Made by a program: the position numbers and the translations under genes. Below are positions 1 to 61,832 of a DNA stretch of 64,000 nucleotides, piece by piece. This DNA comes from Bifidobacterium bombi DSM 19703 (GTDB lineage Bacteria > Actinomycetota > Actinomycetes > Actinomycetales > Bifidobacteriaceae): NCBI RefSeq assembly GCF_000737845.1, contig NZ_ATLK01000001.1, forward strand, positions 558,001-622,000, read 5' to 3'. Every line of letters starts with the position of its first letter. The stretch's first letter is position 1. Below the pieces are notes generated by a model, which saw only the letters and a list, made by a program, of their open reading frames with translations, did no database searches and had not been told where the DNA came from.

Positions 1-260
1 ATACTCGGGTTGCCGCGATTCGATGGCAATTCCCATCGCAGCAAGTTTCGCGCGATCCCTTTGGAACTGCTTTGCAAATGCAGCTTTGGCGGCTTGATCG
101 ACAAGTTCTCCATATGAATCCGCATATGCCTTTACTCGTTGCGCAATCTGCCGGGAAGTCAACCATTGGGGAAATGCTGAAGAGAGCACTGCCAACACAT
201 CGAGCTCATGCTTACCCCATTTATCGGAAAACCGCCGCCTTCCGTTGCTTCCTTCTGCCA
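1..260 (-). CDS. WYL-domain (PafC-like) transcriptional regulator, N-terminal part
   Basis: This is the first 86 codons of a minus-strand gene that runs off the left edge. The visible part is a helix-turn-helix region: a segment reading LTSRQIAQRV is followed by a second block ending FQRDRAKLAAMGIAIES. The pattern 'F.RD...L..MGI.IE' is typical of the N-terminus of WYL/PafC-type regulators, in which a DNA-binding domain precedes a ligand-sensing WYL domain. That domain lies outside the window. The ATG at 260 is preceded by GAGGA at short spacing, and an in-frame stop lies just upstream. The family call rests on the N-terminus only. Confidence 0.7.
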
Positions 261-292
261 TCAGTCCTCACGTATCGTTAATGTCGCTACTA

Positions 293-314
293 GTGTGTAC
301 TTTCAAGTTCACAC
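293..314. promoter_or_regulatory. Dyad-symmetric operator-like site upstream of the WYL gene
   Basis: Two 10-base arms, GTGTGTACTT and AAGTTCACAC, are separated by 2 bases and are complementary at 9 of 10 positions. The site lies about 33 bases upstream of the WYL-regulator start. On the minus strand an AT-rich TATAGAAT-like segment sits just upstream of it. Autoregulation is an inference from position. Confidence 0.35.
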
Positions 315-388
315 GTATTCTATATTAGATGCTTTTTGTGGAAAAACACATCATTTTGCACATTTCACATTGTTTTTTCTTTTTTGGC

Positions 389-411
389 GCACAAAACCCA
401 GCATTTTGTGC
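389..411. terminator. Short perfect hairpin downstream of UGPase
   Basis: GCACAAAA and TTTTGTGC form an 8-bp stem around a 7-base loop. The hairpin lies 51 bases past the UGPase stop codon. No U-tract follows on the minus strand, so a role as terminator is only suggested by position. Confidence 0.35.
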
Positions 412-461
412 AGTCCTGTCGGCAACCATATGCCTCGTCAAGAACAGGTGCGCGCTACGCA

Positions 462-1913
462 TCACCATGAGTCAGGCTCTATGCCTTGAGGTCCGACGAA
501 TGACCCCTTCGGCACGTAGCTGGGCTTGCCACGGTCTTCCAACACGGCATCGCCGTAAAACATGACGTTCTCCCCGAACGTCCAATCTCCCTCGACCGTG
601 ACCGACTTTGCGGCTGCCAGAGAAGGTATGGAATAAGGGAAACGGTTGTTGAAATCAGTAATATACGTATAGAAACGAGGGTCAAGACACACCGACGGGA
701 AATCGTAATTGCCATCCTCCATCTCGTACGAATCCGTCAGATGGAAACGATCGGAGCGCATGATGAACAAATCATTCGTGGTCTTCACAGGTAGGAAGCG
801 CATACGGTCTACTTGCACGCATATAGCGTCATCAAAGAACTTTATCGCAGCTCCCATGGCTGTCTCCAGCTGCACCACCTTGGTGGTGGACGGATCGGTA
901 GGGTCCGCAGTCTTATAATTGCGGATCACCGGCAACGGAAGCACGCCTTGGCACTCACTGAGCTTTTCACGTAATGCATCGATCCTGATCCAGACGCTGT
1001 TCGTATTGAAATATGGGTGACGGGAGACGTCCTCCGCATCTTGTTTGTCTTGTTCTGACACCTGAGTCATCTCACGCAAAACAAGACGTCCGGTTTTGAT
1101 ATCACGGACGAAATGACCACCTTTCCGGTCTGCCTCCGTCCTTTTGGCAACCTCGACCATGAACGGCTTGCCTGAATTCTCGAAATACTGGGCAAGCGTC
1201 CTCGAAGGACGGGCCCCAAGATTATCCGAGTTGGAGATGAACAGGTATTCAAAACCTTGATCCAATAACGTATCCAACAGACCTGTCTCCCAAAGCGTTG
1301 AATAGATGTCGCCGTGACCCGGCGGACACCATTCCAACTCGGGGTTATCAGGAAACTCCACCGGCAGACCGCTGGATAAAACAATTTTGGGCTCCTGATG
1401 CTGGATGATCTGCGTAGGGATGGACTTCTGAACAAAGTGATGATTCTTTTTCAAGACGTTCATGGTGTCTTTGGACGTACGGAACGAATTCATGAACGTG
1501 ACCGGCAATGGAACCCCCAGCCGGTCTCTGGCAGTGGTGATCTGTCCTAGGATGATGTCGATGAATCGCATCTGCCGTGCCTTATGACGGCGCACGGGCA
1601 GCAACGACTTCGCGGCCTCAAGCCCCATAGATGTGCCCAGACCACCATTAAGTTTGAGGAACGCTGTTTTTGCGAAGGCGTGCACGGCCTGCTCATGATC
1701 TATGGTCTTGTAAATGTCATGGAAACTCGGAACTCCCTTGAGAGGCTCGATGTCGGATTCACGAATATAGGAAGCAGTCATTCCCCCACACTGGGGTTGC
1801 CTTTTCTTCTCATCCACCCAATCGGTATACAGATTTTCGAACTGCGCAACGGCTACTTCGCTCATACCATGTTCGCGCATCTTTTGCGCAGAGTGTCCGA
1901 ACAGCTTATCCAA
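462..1913 (-). CDS. UTP--glucose-1-phosphate uridylyltransferase (eukaryotic-type UGPase)
   Basis: The enzyme makes UDP-glucose from glucose-1-phosphate and UTP in the cytoplasm. It feeds cell-wall polysaccharide synthesis and, in bifidobacteria, galactose-containing sugar metabolism. The protein carries the UDPGP-family nucleotide-binding loop LNGGLGTSMG at about residues 88-97, followed by FMNSFRTS and CPPGHGDIY motifs. This is the eukaryotic-type fold, not the short bacterial GalU type. I chose the TTG at 1913 because AAGGAG sits 5 bases upstream, giving 483 residues, close to the family's usual size. The frame stays open to 2060, but that extension has no RBS. GTG at 1919 and ATG at 1880 are less likely alternatives. 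Confidence 0.93.
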   Translation of the reverse strand: MDKLFGHSAQKMREHGMSEVAVAQFENLYTDWVDEKKRQPQCGGMTASYIRESDIEPLKGVPSFHDIYKTIDHEQAVHAFAKTAFLKLNGGLGTSMGLEAAKSLLPVRRHKARQMRFIDIILGQITTARDRLGVPLPVTFMNSFRTSKDTMNVLKKNHHFVQKSIPTQIIQHQEPKIVLSSGLPVEFPDNPELEWCPPGHGDIYSTLWETGLLDTLLDQGFEYLFISNSDNLGARPSRTLAQYFENSGKPFMVEVAKRTEADRKGGHFVRDIKTGRLVLREMTQVSEQDKQDAEDVSRHPYFNTNSVWIRIDALREKLSECQGVLPLPVIRNYKTADPTDPSTTKVVQLETAMGAAIKFFDDAICVQVDRMRFLPVKTTNDLFIMRSDRFHLTDSYEMEDGNYDFPSVCLDPRFYTYITDFNNRFPYSIPSLAAAKSVTVEGDWTFGENVMFYGDAVLEDRGKPSYVPKGSFVGPQGIEPDSW

Positions 1914-2306
1914 AACCACTCCTTCATTCAATAGACCTATGCCTACCAGTGTATCCTCATTTTGGCTTTTGCCAAACTCAATGAAGGTGCCGAAGGTCTG
2001 GTTTGAACCTATAGCACGCGTTGTCGGTTCTTTTACCGGAAATGAATGATGGATCAACAACGCTGCTCCGCGCGAATACTTTTCACAAGTCTTAGCGGTT
2101 CAGACGCATTTGTGCGTGAGGAAATGAATCGGCGTAACCTTCCAAGCTCCTTGGTTGCAGTGATCTTCCCATGAAGATAAGTCAGTTCAAGCTTTTGTCT
2201 CGGTTCAAAAGTACCTGTCAATAACATTTCAAAAGACATGCGCCACGCCGAAGATAGCGATAGCCGGTAATTATGGTACACTTCTTTCTTGGTGTTCATC
2301 ACCGTT
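1914..2306. other. Intergenic region between UGPase and tRNA-Pro
   Basis: This stretch must hold the minus-strand UGPase promoter and the plus-strand tRNA promoter. The UGPase reading frame continues into it but without an RBS. I see no other gene. Confidence 0.5.
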
Positions 2307-2380
<74 letters not shown>

Positions 2381-3357
2381 CGAGATAGCAGGGAATCCAA
2401 GGGTGTTTCCCCTGTTTTCTATTTCCTAAATGACGAGGTATCGTATTGGTTTTATGTGCCCGACGGGCTCGTTGCAATCTTACTGTATTACTTTCGTCCA
2501 ACGCCAACACTCCCACTTCTGTCGGTACCTCGCCACACGTCCTATCAGCAGTTGATGGAGCTCGATTTTCCGTGCTCCAGGCAATCTTCATGCCGTCCAC
2601 CGAAATCACACCCTAATTCCCAACGTCTCACTGACATCAGCAGCCTTTCAGGCACCGAGCGCCTGATTCTCTTCTCATTACATCAATCTGGCTCACACTT
2701 GTTCCATTTTCAGCGAAGGCTGTCGTCGGCTTGTGGTGTTCACCGCTCATTGTAATAAGTTGCCATTTACGCTTATGAGCATTGGTCCGACAAAGGCATG
2801 AACATACGATTGATGGTTAAAAGCTCAGATGCCACCCAGTAGATAGTCATGATACGAAGTCGGACGCCCTCATCTGTGAAGCAAGTTCCGGCTGTGTACA
2901 TAAAGAGATCCAACTAGATGAGGATGCCCGAAAAAACCAAAATCAAAGGACTACGAAAGGGAACACTGGCGGGCGAAGTCGTTGAATTCGAGTGCCCTCA
3001 AGAACATTTTCCCAAACGGGTATTGTTTTCATCCGAGAAGCAATCGAATATACGAACAGGTGACAAGATGAAGGAATCAAACCGAACGTTCTCGGACTTC
3101 TCTCGCTGTCCTCGGTACCATTCGTTCTGGAATTCTTTGCACAACAACTGAAGACTTCGAACTTGGTCCCACACTCACCCCAAGTATTTCGAAGTATGTT
3201 CGAAAAGGCTCCTTTCTGTTTTTTATAAACGTATTTTCACCTAAGCTGACGGCTGTAACCTCTCTCCTAGGACATTATTGAGGCTATCCGACCAACTCTT
3301 TTACCGTGCGCAAACGTCAGGATAAAACCATCTTGGTGTTACCCTGCGCCTTGTACG
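2381..3357. other. About 1 kb without a convincing gene
   Basis: Only short open frames occur here, including a 77-codon plus-strand frame at 2918-3151 and an 87-codon minus-strand frame that reads into the tRNA. Neither has a credible RBS or a recognisable product. I see no transposase, integrase or direct repeat of the tRNA end. It may be decayed accessory DNA. Confidence 0.5.
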
Positions 3358-3409
3358 AATCGGCTCCTTTGAGGGTGCGTAAGCCGTGCCATACTCAAAG
3401 AAGCCGATT
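3358..3409. terminator. Long hairpin downstream of cmk-der
   Basis: The arms AATCGGCTCCTTTGAG and CTCAAAGAAGCCGATT pair over 16 positions with one mismatch, around a 20-base loop. The hairpin lies 27 bases beyond the cmk-der stop codon. There is no U-tract on either side. I infer a transcription terminator of the kind lacking a U-tail. Confidence 0.6.
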
Positions 3410-3435
3410 ACATCTCATTGGCCTAATTGTAGGTC

Positions 3436-5574
3436 TCATTTGCCTTTGGTCTTGCGCTCGCGAATGTTCACTGAAATCTGAATAGGCGTACCTTCGAAGC
3501 CGAATTCCTCGCGAATCTGGCGTTCCAGGTAGCGTCGGTACCCATGCTCCAGAAATCCGGTAGCGAAGACAACGAACCTCGGAGGCCTCGTCGAAGCCTG
3601 TGTGGCGAACAGGATACGCGGCTGTTTCCCACCGCGCAAGGGGTGCGGGTGGGCGGCCTGAACCTTGCCGAGGAACGCGTTGAGCTTCCCCGTGGGGATG
3701 CGTTTATCCCAGGAGGTCAGAGCCTCACGCATGGCACGTGCCAAACGGTTCGTATGCCAACCGCTTTTCGCGGAGAGATTGACGCGTTGCGCCCAAGTGA
3801 CTTGGTCGAACTCGGTCTTCCACAGCCGTTCCATCCGCTGCCGGTCGAAGTCGTCCATGAGGTCCCACTTATTGAACACCAACACCATGGCTCGGCCTGC
3901 ATCCACCGCCTGACTCATGACCTTCAGATCCTGATCGGAAATCGGCTGCGAAGCGTCGAACAACACCAACGCCAGTTCGGAACGCTCTATCGCCGCTTGC
4001 GTACGCAGCGAAGAATAGTATTCGGCTCCCGAAAGCTTGTGCTGACGCCGTTTTATTCCCGCGGTGTCGATGAACAGCCAATCCTGACCGTCCAAAGTGA
4101 CGACTTCATCGACGGGATCGCGGGTGGTACCCGCCAAATCATCCACTACTGAACGTTCCTGATGGGCAAGTTGGTTGAGCAGCGAGGACTTGCCTACGTT
4201 GGGTCGTCCCACCAAAGCGATGCGACGCAAATTCGAAGGCGTGAGGAATCCGGACATCTTTTTCGCCTGAGCCAGGGTTTTGATTGCGACATCCAGCAGC
4301 TCACCGATGCCACGTCCATGCATTGCGGATATACCATATGGCTCGCCAAGACCCAATTTCCAAAAATCCGCTGTTAGGTATTCTTCGGAAGAGCCATCGA
4401 TCTTGTTTACGGCAAGAATGATTGGCTTTCCTGATTGCCGAAGCATGGACACCATGCGGGAATCGGTATTGGTGACGCCCACTTGCGCATCCACCACAAG
4501 TACGACGGCATCAGCGAGTCCCACTGCGATTTGAGCCTGGGAGGCTATCGCCGAATCCATGCCTTCGACGCCGGTCTCCCAACCGCCGGTATCCACCAGC
4601 TTGAAATGAGTGCCGGACCATTCGGCATCATAACTGACCCTGTCTCGTGTGACGCCTGGAGTGTCTTCCACAACGGCCACACGTCGTCCAAGAATTCTGT
4701 TTACCAGTGTTGACTTGCCTACGTTGGGTCGTCCCACCACGGCGAGCACTCCAACGACCGTTTTCGCGTCGTGCCCTTCACCATCATCGACGGTCCTGGC
4801 AACCAGGGCACGGTCTGATTCGTCAAGCTCGTAATCCTCGAGGTTCGCGGCGTAACGCTCATATTCCCGGGCTTCTATGGCATCGTCGACGAGCTCGATA
4901 AGTCTGTCCAAAGTCTGTTCGAACGTAAGATCGGAATTATCGAGTGTCGTTACTCCTGGTGCTGCATCAAGGAAATTCGTCGTTCCTGAGTCCGCCTTAT
5001 CGCGTGCGGAGACATCCTCCGAACCCACGACCCCTCGGGAAATGGAAGACTGCCCGGATCGACGTGCCTGGCGAACTTCGGGTCTGGCTGTGAGCAGGAC
5101 ACGCACCTCGGCCTCTGGCTCAACAACGGTCGTGATATCTCTGCCTTCAGCGACAACGCCTGCACCTTGAGAAAACGAATCCTCTCCTGCCTCGCCGTCG
5201 ATGTACGCCCGTTGTGCGGCGATGAGCAGATGACGCACGGGAATGACGTTGGACACCTTGGAGACATGCAACGAGACATCCGCATCACGTATCGCATCAC
5301 CGATCTCGTTTCCATTGACACGGACATACGGTCGATCCGGATCAAGACCGATATCGAAATGCCCGTCGGTGAACAAATCGGCGACGCATTGCGTCACTAT
5401 GCGCTCATCGACCGAATCTGCATCCAAATCGATGCCTTGCTGCAAACACCACCAAGCGGCTGCGCGATACATTGCACCTGTGTCGAGATAAGCATAACCG
5501 AAATATTTCGCCAACGCCTTTGACGTAGAAGACTTACCGACACCCGCCGGCCCGTCTATTGCCACACGGATCAC
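3436..5574 (-). CDS. cmk-der: Cytidylate kinase fused to GTPase Der (EngA)
   Basis: This 712-residue protein joins two enzymes. Residues 1-240 are cytidylate kinase, which phosphorylates CMP and dCMP; the P-loop GPAGVGKSS is at 8-16. Residues 270-712 are Der, the double GTPase needed for 50S ribosome assembly. Its two G domains show GRPNVGKS at 281-288 and 456-463, NKID at 390-393 and NKWD at 568-571. A KH-like C-terminal domain follows from about 630. The fusion is known in bifidobacteria. It shares a 4-base overlap with the upstream pseudouridine synthase, so the two are very likely co-transcribed. All key loops are intact. Confidence 0.97.
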
Positions 5575-58888: not shown

Positions 58889-59218
58889 GCGTTTCCCTAC
58901 CAATCCTGTTTGTCCTGATTATTACCGACGATAAAATCGACTATCGTACAATTTACTACCATTGTCAATGCTCAATACGACAAAATCGACGTCGTGCACG
59001 CTGCGCCTCAAACGAACAAATCAGAACGTAACGCACATCAACACGCCGAAATCAAACACACCGAATTGAACATTGCAAAAGGTTGGAAAATGGTCGCTAT
59101 CGCAACATTTCAACGTTTTAAAATCTCGAAAAGTCTTGGAACAAATTCACAAGTAGTCGAAATATTTTCACATTTTCAATCAGCGATATTACATTTTCGC
59201 ACACAGCAGCAAAAAAAA
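58889..59218. other. AT-rich divergent region guaA / xfp
   Basis: The region is AT-rich and holds the promoters of guaA and xfp. It contains similar segments GATAAAATCGACTATCG and GACAAAATCGACGTCG, about 50 bases apart, near the guaA side. No gene is supported. Confidence 0.4.
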
Positions 59219-59287
59219 GTCCCATAAGTCTGCTTGTCCGGGTACGATTATAGGCGATTGGAGCGAATACCCGAAGTTCTATGGGAC
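59219..59287 (+). promoter_or_regulatory. Nested inverted repeats in the xfp upstream region
   Basis: GTCCCATA (59219-59226) pairs with TATGGGAC (59280-59287). Inside, CGGGTA (59239-59244) pairs with TACCCG (59268-59273). The element ends 67 bases before the xfp start. It could be a folded leader or an operator. I recognise no known riboswitch. Confidence 0.5.
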
Positions 59288-59354
59288 AAGGGAATTCGCA
59301 CTCTGATGGTAAACAAATCAAGCGCACATTACGTGCAGGAGTACAGGAGTACAC

Positions 59355-61832
59355 ATGACAAGTCCTGTTATTGGAACACCGTGGAAGAAGCTAGATTCTC
59401 CGGTTTCCGACGAAACCCTTGAAGGCGTCGACAAATACTGGCGCGCCGCGAACTACCTTTCGATCGGCCAAATTTATCTGCGTAGCAATCCGTTGATGAA
59501 GGAACCCTTCACCCGCGAAGACGTCAAGCATCGTCTGGTGGGCCACTGGGGAACCACCCCAGGCTTGAACTTCCTGCTTGGACACATCAACCGTCTCATC
59601 GCCGACCACCAGCAGAACACCGTGTTCATCATGGGTCCGGGCCATGGCGGCCCCGCCGGCACCTCGCAGTCCTATCTGGACGGCACCTACAGTGAGTACT
59701 ACCCGAAGATCACGAACGACGAGGCGGGACTTCAGAAGTTCTTCCGCCAGTTCTCCTACCCGGGCGGCATTCCTTCCCACTTCGCCCCTGAGACCCCGGG
59801 CTCCATCCACGAAGGCGGTGAGCTCGGTTACGCTTTGAGCCATGCCTACGGCGCCATCATGAACAACCCCAGCCTGTTCGTTCCCGCAGTCGTCGGTGAC
59901 GGCGAGGCCGAGACCGGTCCGCTGGCGACTGGCTGGCAGTCCAACAAGCTCGTCAATCCCCGCACCGATGGCATTGTGTTGCCGATTCTGCACCTCAACG
60001 GCTACAAGATTGCCAATCCGACCATTCTGGCGCGCATCCCCGATAACGAGCTCCATGAGTTCTTTGAGGGCATGGGCTACGAACCCTTCGAGTTCGTCGC
60101 CGGCTTCGACGACGAAGATCACATGTCCATCCACCGTCGTTTCGCGGCCTTGCTTGAAGAGGTCTTCGACAAGATCTGTGACATCAAGGCGAAGGCGCAG
60201 ACCAACGATATGGAACGCCCGACCTACCCGATGATCATCTTCCGCACTCCGAAGGGCTGGACCTGCCCCAAGTTCATCGACGGCAAGAAGACCGAAGGGT
60301 CTTGGCGCGCCCACCAGGTGCCGCTGGCTTCCGCCCGGGACACCGAGGCCCACTTCCAGATCCTCAAGGGCTGGCTGGAGTCCTACAAGCCCGAAGAGCT
60401 CTTCGACGAAAACGGTGCCGTGCGTCCTGAAGTCACCGCGTTCATGCCCAAGGGCGAACTGCGCATCGGTCAGAACCCGAACGCCAATGGCGGCCGTATC
60501 CGCGAAGATCTGAAGCTGCCGAAGCTTGAGGACTACGCAGTGACCGAGGTCGAGAAGTTCGGACATGGATGGGGTCAGCTCGAAGCAACGCGCCAGCTGG
60601 GCAACTACACCCGCGACATCATCAAGAACAACCCGGACTCCTTCCGCATCTTCGGACCGGACGAGACCGCTTCCAACCGTCTCCAGGCCGCTTATGACGT
60701 GACCGACAAACAGTGGGACAACGGCTATCTCTCCGCTCTGACTGACGAGCACATGGCCGTCTCCGGCCAAGTCGTGGAGCAGCTCTCCGAGCATCAGATG
60801 GAAGGCTTCCTCGAGGGCTATGTCTTGACCGGTCGTCACGGCATCTGGAGCACGTACGAGTCCTTCGCCCATGTGATCGACTCCATGCTCAACCAGCACG
60901 CCAAGTGGCTCGAGGCCACGGTGCGTGAAATTCCGTGGCGCAAGCCCATCGCCTCCATCAACATGCTGATTTCATCGCATGTATGGCGTCAGGATCACAA
61001 CGGCTTCTCCCATCAGGATCCGGGTGTGAGCTCCCTGTTGCTGAACAAGAACTTCAACAACGACCATGTGATTGGCGAGTACTTCCCCGCCGACGCCAAC
61101 ATGTTGCTGGCCGTGGCCGAAGAGGCGTTCAAGTCCACCAACAAGATCAACGCGATCTTCGCGGGCAAGCAGCCCGCCTCCACATGGCTCTCGCTTGATG
61201 AGGCCCGCGCTGAGCTCACGAAGGGCGCCGCCGAATGGAAGTGGGCTTCCACTGCCAAGAACAATGAAGAAACGCAGGTCGTCCTGGCCTGTGTGGGTGA
61301 CGTTCCTACCCAGGAGATTATGGCGGCCTCCGACAAACTCAAGGAGCTTGGCATCAAGTTCAAGGTCGTCAACGTGGTGGACACGATCAAGCTGCAGTCC
61401 CCCAAGTACAATGACGAGGCTCTCTCCGATGAGGAGTTCACGGAGCTCTTCACCTCCGACAAGCCGGTTCTGTTTGCTTATCACTCCTACGCAAACGACA
61501 TCCATTCGCTGACTTTCGACCGCCCGAACCACGATAACTTCAACGTTCACGGTTACAAGGAGCAGGGTTCCACCACCACTCCGTACGACATGGTTCGCGT
61601 TAACGACATGGACCGCTACGAGCTGGAGGCCGAGGCGCTTCGTATGGTCGATGCCGATAAGTACGCCGACAAGATCGCTGAGCTTGAGAAGTTCCGTAAG
61701 GATGCCTTCCAGTTCGCAGTCGATAAGGGCTATGACCATCCTGATTACACGGATTGGGTGTATTCAGGAGTGGATCCGACCCATGAGGGTTCGATCTCCG
61801 CAACCGCCGCTACCGCTGGCGACAACGAATGA
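59355..61832 (+). CDS. xfp: Xylulose-5-phosphate/fructose-6-phosphate phosphoketolase
   Basis: This is the key enzyme of the bifid shunt. It splits fructose-6-phosphate or xylulose-5-phosphate with phosphate, giving acetyl-phosphate and erythrose-4-phosphate or glyceraldehyde-3-phosphate. It needs thiamine diphosphate. The 825-residue protein contains [28 protein letters not shown], the diphosphate and Mg site [14 protein letters not shown] near residue 181, the C-terminal [15 protein letters not shown] and closing [19 protein letters not shown] precedes the ATG. The gene is strongly biased towards preferred codons. It heads a run with pta and ackA, each apparently with its own signals. Confidence 0.98.

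Follow-up and report, generated by a model that had tools for sequence, protein, structure and literature searches.

What lies between the promoter and the start codon of xfp in Bifidobacterium bombi, and does it help to set the expression of the gene? Phosphoketolase, the product of xfp, is the hallmark enzyme that defines bifidobacterial sugar metabolism, and xfp is a strongly expressed gene. In the window, that is, the whole 64,000-nt stretch of the B. bombi DSM 19703 genome analysed here, it was recognised as a reading frame for 825 aa (59355..61832, + strand) with matches in 111 of the 112 genomes of our genus sample. An initial annotation had pointed to two nested sets of inverted repeats upstream of this frame, and the arms do occur where it placed them: an outer 8-bp pair, GTCCCATA (59219-59226) with TATGGGAC (59280-59287), encloses an inner 6-bp pair, CGGGTA (59239-59244) with TACCCG (59268-59273).

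The genus comparisons rest on an alignment of 108 xfp upstream regions, 103 of them distinct. A locus cut by a contig end (L081) was left out of the upstream sets and a second xfp copy with no leader (L110) out of the alignments. The N-masked L050 was kept in the promoter and arm-pairing counts, the z-scores of 99 leaders, the covariation in alignment A1 and the building of model R1 (both described below), and excluded from the folds and accessibilities of 98 leaders, the codon comparison, the unpaired probabilities and the held-out covariation. With one of the 103 distinct rows masked, 102 were readable for the promoter. In these, an AAGTC box (59226..59230, + strand) has A59226, G59228, T59229 and C59230 in 102/102 rows and A59227 in 92, and 12 nt separate it from an inferred -10 element, TACGAT (TAnnAT; 59243..59248, + strand), of which T59243, A59244 and T59248 are invariant in 102/102. 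No canonical -35 was seen before this -10 element, and the promoter scan of the window did not list the element. Further downstream stands an invariant G, with C or T before it in 93 rows; because PMC4782308, in its available text, reports a pyrimidine-purine rule at -1/+1 in each of the four gut species studied, B. pseudolongum among them, the transcription start is predicted to be G59256 (59256, + strand). As a separate observation, the xfp promoter (59226-59248 in the window) is marked by an almost invariant AAAGTC box. The exact pattern AAAGTC-N10-CGTANNAT is present in 64/112 genus genomes, and coordinates place 61 of these 64 sites at xfp; the window's own version deviates and lacks the exact pattern.

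The leader that would begin at this position spans about 59256-59370 and comprises an imperfect 5'-terminal hairpin, P1 (59257..59307, + strand), delimited by folding and covariation, followed by an A/U-rich linker, a small hairpin, a tandem Shine-Dalgarno sequence and frozen codons. The segment 59256-59310 has a predicted folding energy of -18.5 kcal/mol (z -3.17), and for 59256-59354 (z -3.28) only 1/200 shuffles folded as well. Across the genus, 99 unique leaders, one of them masked, had a mean z of -2.94, with 79 below -2, and in 86 of 98 minimum-energy folds no more than 4 unpaired nucleotides precede the first pair, counted from the inferred 5' end. An ATG at 59305-59307, out of frame with xfp, lies in the leader of the window, and some ATG is present in 73/98 unique genus leaders.

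Compensatory changes were sought in two alignments, a structure-blind one of 62 rows (A1) and a model-fitted one of 91 rows (A2), the latter leaning towards the structure. The named helices contained 164 double-changed cells in A1 against 80.7 in shuffles (reached in 0/500), a count that is not to be taken as a probability, here or in the other covariation tests, related sequences being non-independent. The number of A1 pairs changed on both sides was not unusual (14 versus 12.4 in shuffles; 85/500). The top covarying pair among 5015 column pairs of A1 belongs to P1, and four helix pairs fall within the top 16, the other sixteen ranking from 54 to 4220. In A2, 83.8% of cells pair, 338 cells are double-changed compared with 116.9 after shuffling (0/500), and 19/20 pairs have changed on both sides compared with 13.8 (0/500). 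Thirty held-out rows, outside the building of the model, gave 85.5% pairing and 124 double changes, the maxima over 500 permutations being 70.4% and 58, respectively. These comparisons show that a helix at the inferred 5' end is kept by compensating base changes, and P1 is the part in which such changes are clear. Its apical part has little conserved sequence and is absent from some relatives (L158, L164), as expected if a helix alone is needed; in Alloscardovia only a short hairpin remains in place of P1. RNAalifold applied to the MAFFT alignment alone recovered just part of P1 and another pairing of the Shine-Dalgarno region, which was not adopted.

Between P1 and the reading frame, the conserved A/U-rich linker (59308..59323, + strand), a proposed standby site, is mostly unpaired in prediction (mean unpaired probability 0.76 for the 12 nt before the GCAC arm). 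It is followed by the small hairpin GCAC (59324-59327)/GTGC (59333-59336), helix 4 of the covariation tests (59324..59336, + strand), and by the tandem Shine-Dalgarno (59337..59349, + strand), composed of AGGAG at 59337-59341 and AGGAG at 59345-59349. Part of one family genus, g5, has lost one Shine-Dalgarno copy (L147, L148, L152-L154, L156-L163), and at those loci the small hairpin directly adjoins the remaining one. Comparative sequence reveals near-invariance in codons 3-6 as well as around the two Shine-Dalgarno copies. The frozen series ART-CCT-GTT at codons 3-5 is complementary to the Shine-Dalgarno: within the genus, codon 3 is AGT or AAT and is followed by CCT and GTT in 108/108 loci and then by ATT in 107/108. 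Deeper in 30 of these genes the same codons account for 0.3% (AGT), 3.1% (AAT), 11% (CCT), 16.4% (GTT) and 11.6% (ATT) of usage per amino acid, and synonymous entropy rises from 0.02 bits at codons 3-6 to 0.75 at codons 7-50.

This complementarity defines a predicted hairpin, P4 (59343..59368, + strand), in which ACAGGA (59343-59348) pairs with TCCTGT (59363-59368) and the loop contains the start codon. Its predicted pair probability is 0.79, exceeding 0.5 in 92/98 leaders, and the start codon is predicted to be unpaired with a probability of 0.87. All six pairs can form in 75/80 distinct leader-bearing rows; no row retains the complementarity once the register is shifted by 1-3 nt, and it is present in 0/4 xfp copies that lack a model match. 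In this comparison the four Alloscardovia rows were assessed at the GGA closest to the start, which is probably not their Shine-Dalgarno. No compensatory changes were detected in P4, where changes occur only on the Shine-Dalgarno side and keep a wobble pair (11 rows); in L222 both sides have changed without compensation. P4 is thus a strongly conserved, predicted hairpin rather than a proven helix. When native codons were compared with usage-weighted synonymous ones in every second unique leader (49/98), accessibility was 0.27 versus 0.52 for the Shine-Dalgarno and 0.87 versus 0.43 for the start codon. Nor did the native upstream part raise Shine-Dalgarno accessibility (0.27 versus 0.31 with the upstream part shuffled), and both comparisons leave unsupported a simple translational enhancement in which the leader frees the Shine-Dalgarno. 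The accessibility of xfp is not an outlier among 31 genes of the window. The predicted layout is of the standby type: an unpaired segment precedes a Shine-Dalgarno that is itself base-paired.

To delimit the distribution of the leader, a covariance model, R1, was built from the 62 rows of A1. It matches 110/112 genus genomes, 109 of them with one match at E <= 2.3e-7 and one (G076, region masked) at E 0.0015; the two genomes with no match are G078, which has no xfp match, and G094, whose xfp match starts at the edge of a contig. The search of the 112 genomes gave strong matches nowhere but at xfp, and four weak extra matches (L171-L174, E 0.005-0.07), which have no xfp start by motif, were taken as chance. 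At 108/108 genus xfp loci (L050 masked) the last matched base is followed immediately by the start codon. In the family, R1 matches 158/189 genomes at E <= 0.1, in 8/16 genera; outside the genus it matches 48/77, and in 34/34 out-of-genus matches inspected it precedes an xfp start. Fourteen further out-of-genus xfp upstream regions (L211-L224), from 8 genomes with no match and 6 with E 1.6e-4 to 0.05, were searched singly: nine match R1 at the xfp start (E 2.6e-6 to 0.0056) and five, all Alloscardovia loci, do not. The minimum-energy folds of 13/14 of these regions, computed from starts picked by eye, place a hairpin near the chosen 5' end, L220 being the exception. Four genera gave no R1 match despite the presence of xfp relatives: g4, g10 and, as deduced by elimination, g12 and g13. 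The named genera encountered include Bifidobacterium, Gardnerella, Alloscardovia, Scardovia and Aeriscardovia. In an even, order-wide sample of 297 genomes searched with stricter filters, there were 21 matching genomes at E <= 0.01; they fall in two family genera, with no match outside the family. A second xfp is present in some genomes of the family. In G126 both copies bear the leader (L228, L243, L244), one of them appearing as two split matches; in G090 and G158 the additional copy (L110 and L225, respectively) has neither an R1 match nor the leader. Compensatory changes together with a constant position before one gene identify, on comparative grounds, a conserved cis-acting structured 5' leader.

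As to previously described elements, the initial annotation held that no described bifidobacterial riboswitch fits, which agrees with Rfam release 15: no matching family was found in the window, nor any at E <= 0.5 in 15 relatives. We recognised no description of an xfp leader in the portions of the open-access literature searched. The available text of PMC5746004 lists FMN, TPP and ykoK elements for B. breve UCC2003 without an xfp leader among them; neither "xfp" nor "phosphoketolase" appears in what is available of its main text, and the same holds for the available text of PMC10832533. Like the FMN, TPP and ykoK elements of PMC5746004, as far as its available text describes them, the xfp leader is a bifidobacterial 5'-UTR RNA element; unlike them, it has no Rfam match and no recognised ligand pocket. 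The xfp leader is not an operator palindrome, and it matches none of the described riboswitch families.

The reading that we favour, at about even probability, is that xfp mRNAs of the Bifidobacteriaceae carry a conserved structured leader of ~100 nt in which an mRNA-protecting 5' hairpin is joined to a standby-type structured ribosome-binding site. P1 would keep the 5' end out of reach of 5'-end-dependent decay, the linker, conserved and unpaired, would act as a ribosome standby site, and P4, a weak hairpin whose loop contains the start codon, would hold the ribosome-binding site; a waiting ribosome would capture the binding site when P4 opens, and the combined effect would be a high, steady output of the enzyme. 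A 5'-terminal stabilising hairpin of this kind is known from the E. coli ompA leader. The xfp leader is like it in that the hairpin is predicted to lie at, or close to, the very start of a strongly expressed mRNA, in a host whose genome has RNase E/G and RNase J family matches (the RNase J model matches many control genomes too), and unlike it in that the hairpin is kept by family-wide covariation and joined to a structured ribosome-binding site, its stabilising effect being a presumed one. According to the available text of PMC3997798, RNase E prefers accessible over base-paired 5' monophosphate ends. Standby-site leaders, as presented in the available part of PMC3936740, share with the xfp leader a single-stranded stretch, predicted in our case, upstream of a sequestered Shine-Dalgarno; the xfp leader differs from them in being natural, gene-specific and conserved. 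The 5' hairpin, the RNase matches and the unpaired stretch fit a leader that may protect the mRNA and tune initiation.

Among the alternatives, the one that fares best, although we consider it unlikely, takes the leader for a regulated sensor. It would be a metabolite riboswitch, or else be recognised by a small RNA or by a protein, whether an RNA-binding regulator or Xfp; in each case P4 would be opened or closed and bifid-shunt flux thereby adjusted. Binding sites are another possible role of the conserved linker and codons, and their invariance makes a regulated role possible, as do the sequestration of the Shine-Dalgarno and the strict link to one central gene. The available text of PMC6882875 reports that AraQ and MalR1 bind at other bifid-shunt genes and that the xfp transcript is up 1.5-fold in a regulator mutant; xfp is absent from the regions in its Table 1, tested with AraQ/MalR1, which also speaks for a sensor. 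However, the poor conservation of the apical part of P1 and its loss in some relatives, which show it to be dispensable, argue against a ligand pocket there. Moreover, no junction or covarying alternative helix emerged, the one tested, a long-range closing helix GCGATTG/CAATCGC, being 80.5% paired with no covariation (480/500 shuffles reach its score), and strong matches of the model are confined to xfp.

It is unlikely, in our judgement, that P1 is a 5'-end mRNA stabiliser and nothing else, the invariant codons serving another purpose such as slow early elongation or another contact. The clear compensatory changes in P1 and the 5' hairpin retained by the short versions are what such a leader would display, but the complementarity of the codons to the Shine-Dalgarno, so widespread in leader-bearing rows and confined to a single register, is at odds with it.

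Far less credible than either, and in our estimate highly improbable, is that the nested repeats themselves are a functional element, whether as RNA structure or as DNA operator, perfect as their arms are. With a start at G59256, both left arms would be untranscribed: the outer one (59219..59226, + strand) lies upstream of the start, outside the RNA, and overlaps the conserved promoter box, and the inner one (59239..59244, + strand) overlaps the -10 element. The two right arms fall within P1. Among the 103 distinct rows, the outer-arm columns pair in 171/621 cells (27.5%) and the inner-arm columns in 154/548 (28.1%), and full pairing of each set was found in 1/103 rows, the window's own, which speaks against conservation or covariation of the arms across species. 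Their pairing is absent from the best fold of 59205-59300 (z -1.59; 14/200 shuffles as good). When 59100-59354 was dinucleotide-shuffled 1000 times, 14.6% of the shuffles had at least one 8-bp inverted repeat with a gap of <=60 nt (one was observed); for 58904-59354, also shuffled 1000 times, the figure was 32.4%. The nested arrangement is rarer (1.1% of 1000 shuffles for the 255-nt region and 2.2% for the 451-nt region), which is weak evidence in their favour, the pattern being post hoc. A 20-bp operator palindrome of the AraQ/MalR1 type, as at eno and pyk, was also considered and rejected: the arm sequences differ from the operators in the available text of PMC6882875 and are unconserved. 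The nested repeats look like a coincidence of one species, partly outside the transcript. The proposal that they stabilise the 5' end or control expression is lost for the repeats, unconserved and with left arms upstream of the inferred start, and survives, as the best reading of its role, for the conserved leader with its compensating base changes.

A protective hairpin joined to a standby-type ribosome-binding site remains the reading that we prefer for the xfp leader. Should the leader instead be a family-specific, RNA-level switch of the bifid shunt, in which a metabolite, phosphoketolase or a small RNA opens or closes the helix that codons 3-5 form with the Shine-Dalgarno, a speculation that we hold to be improbable, translation of xfp would follow carbon flux. 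A covarying, family-wide leader with no Rfam match offers a directly testable control point for xfp and, as a natural expression leader, a candidate for trial in laboratory strains.
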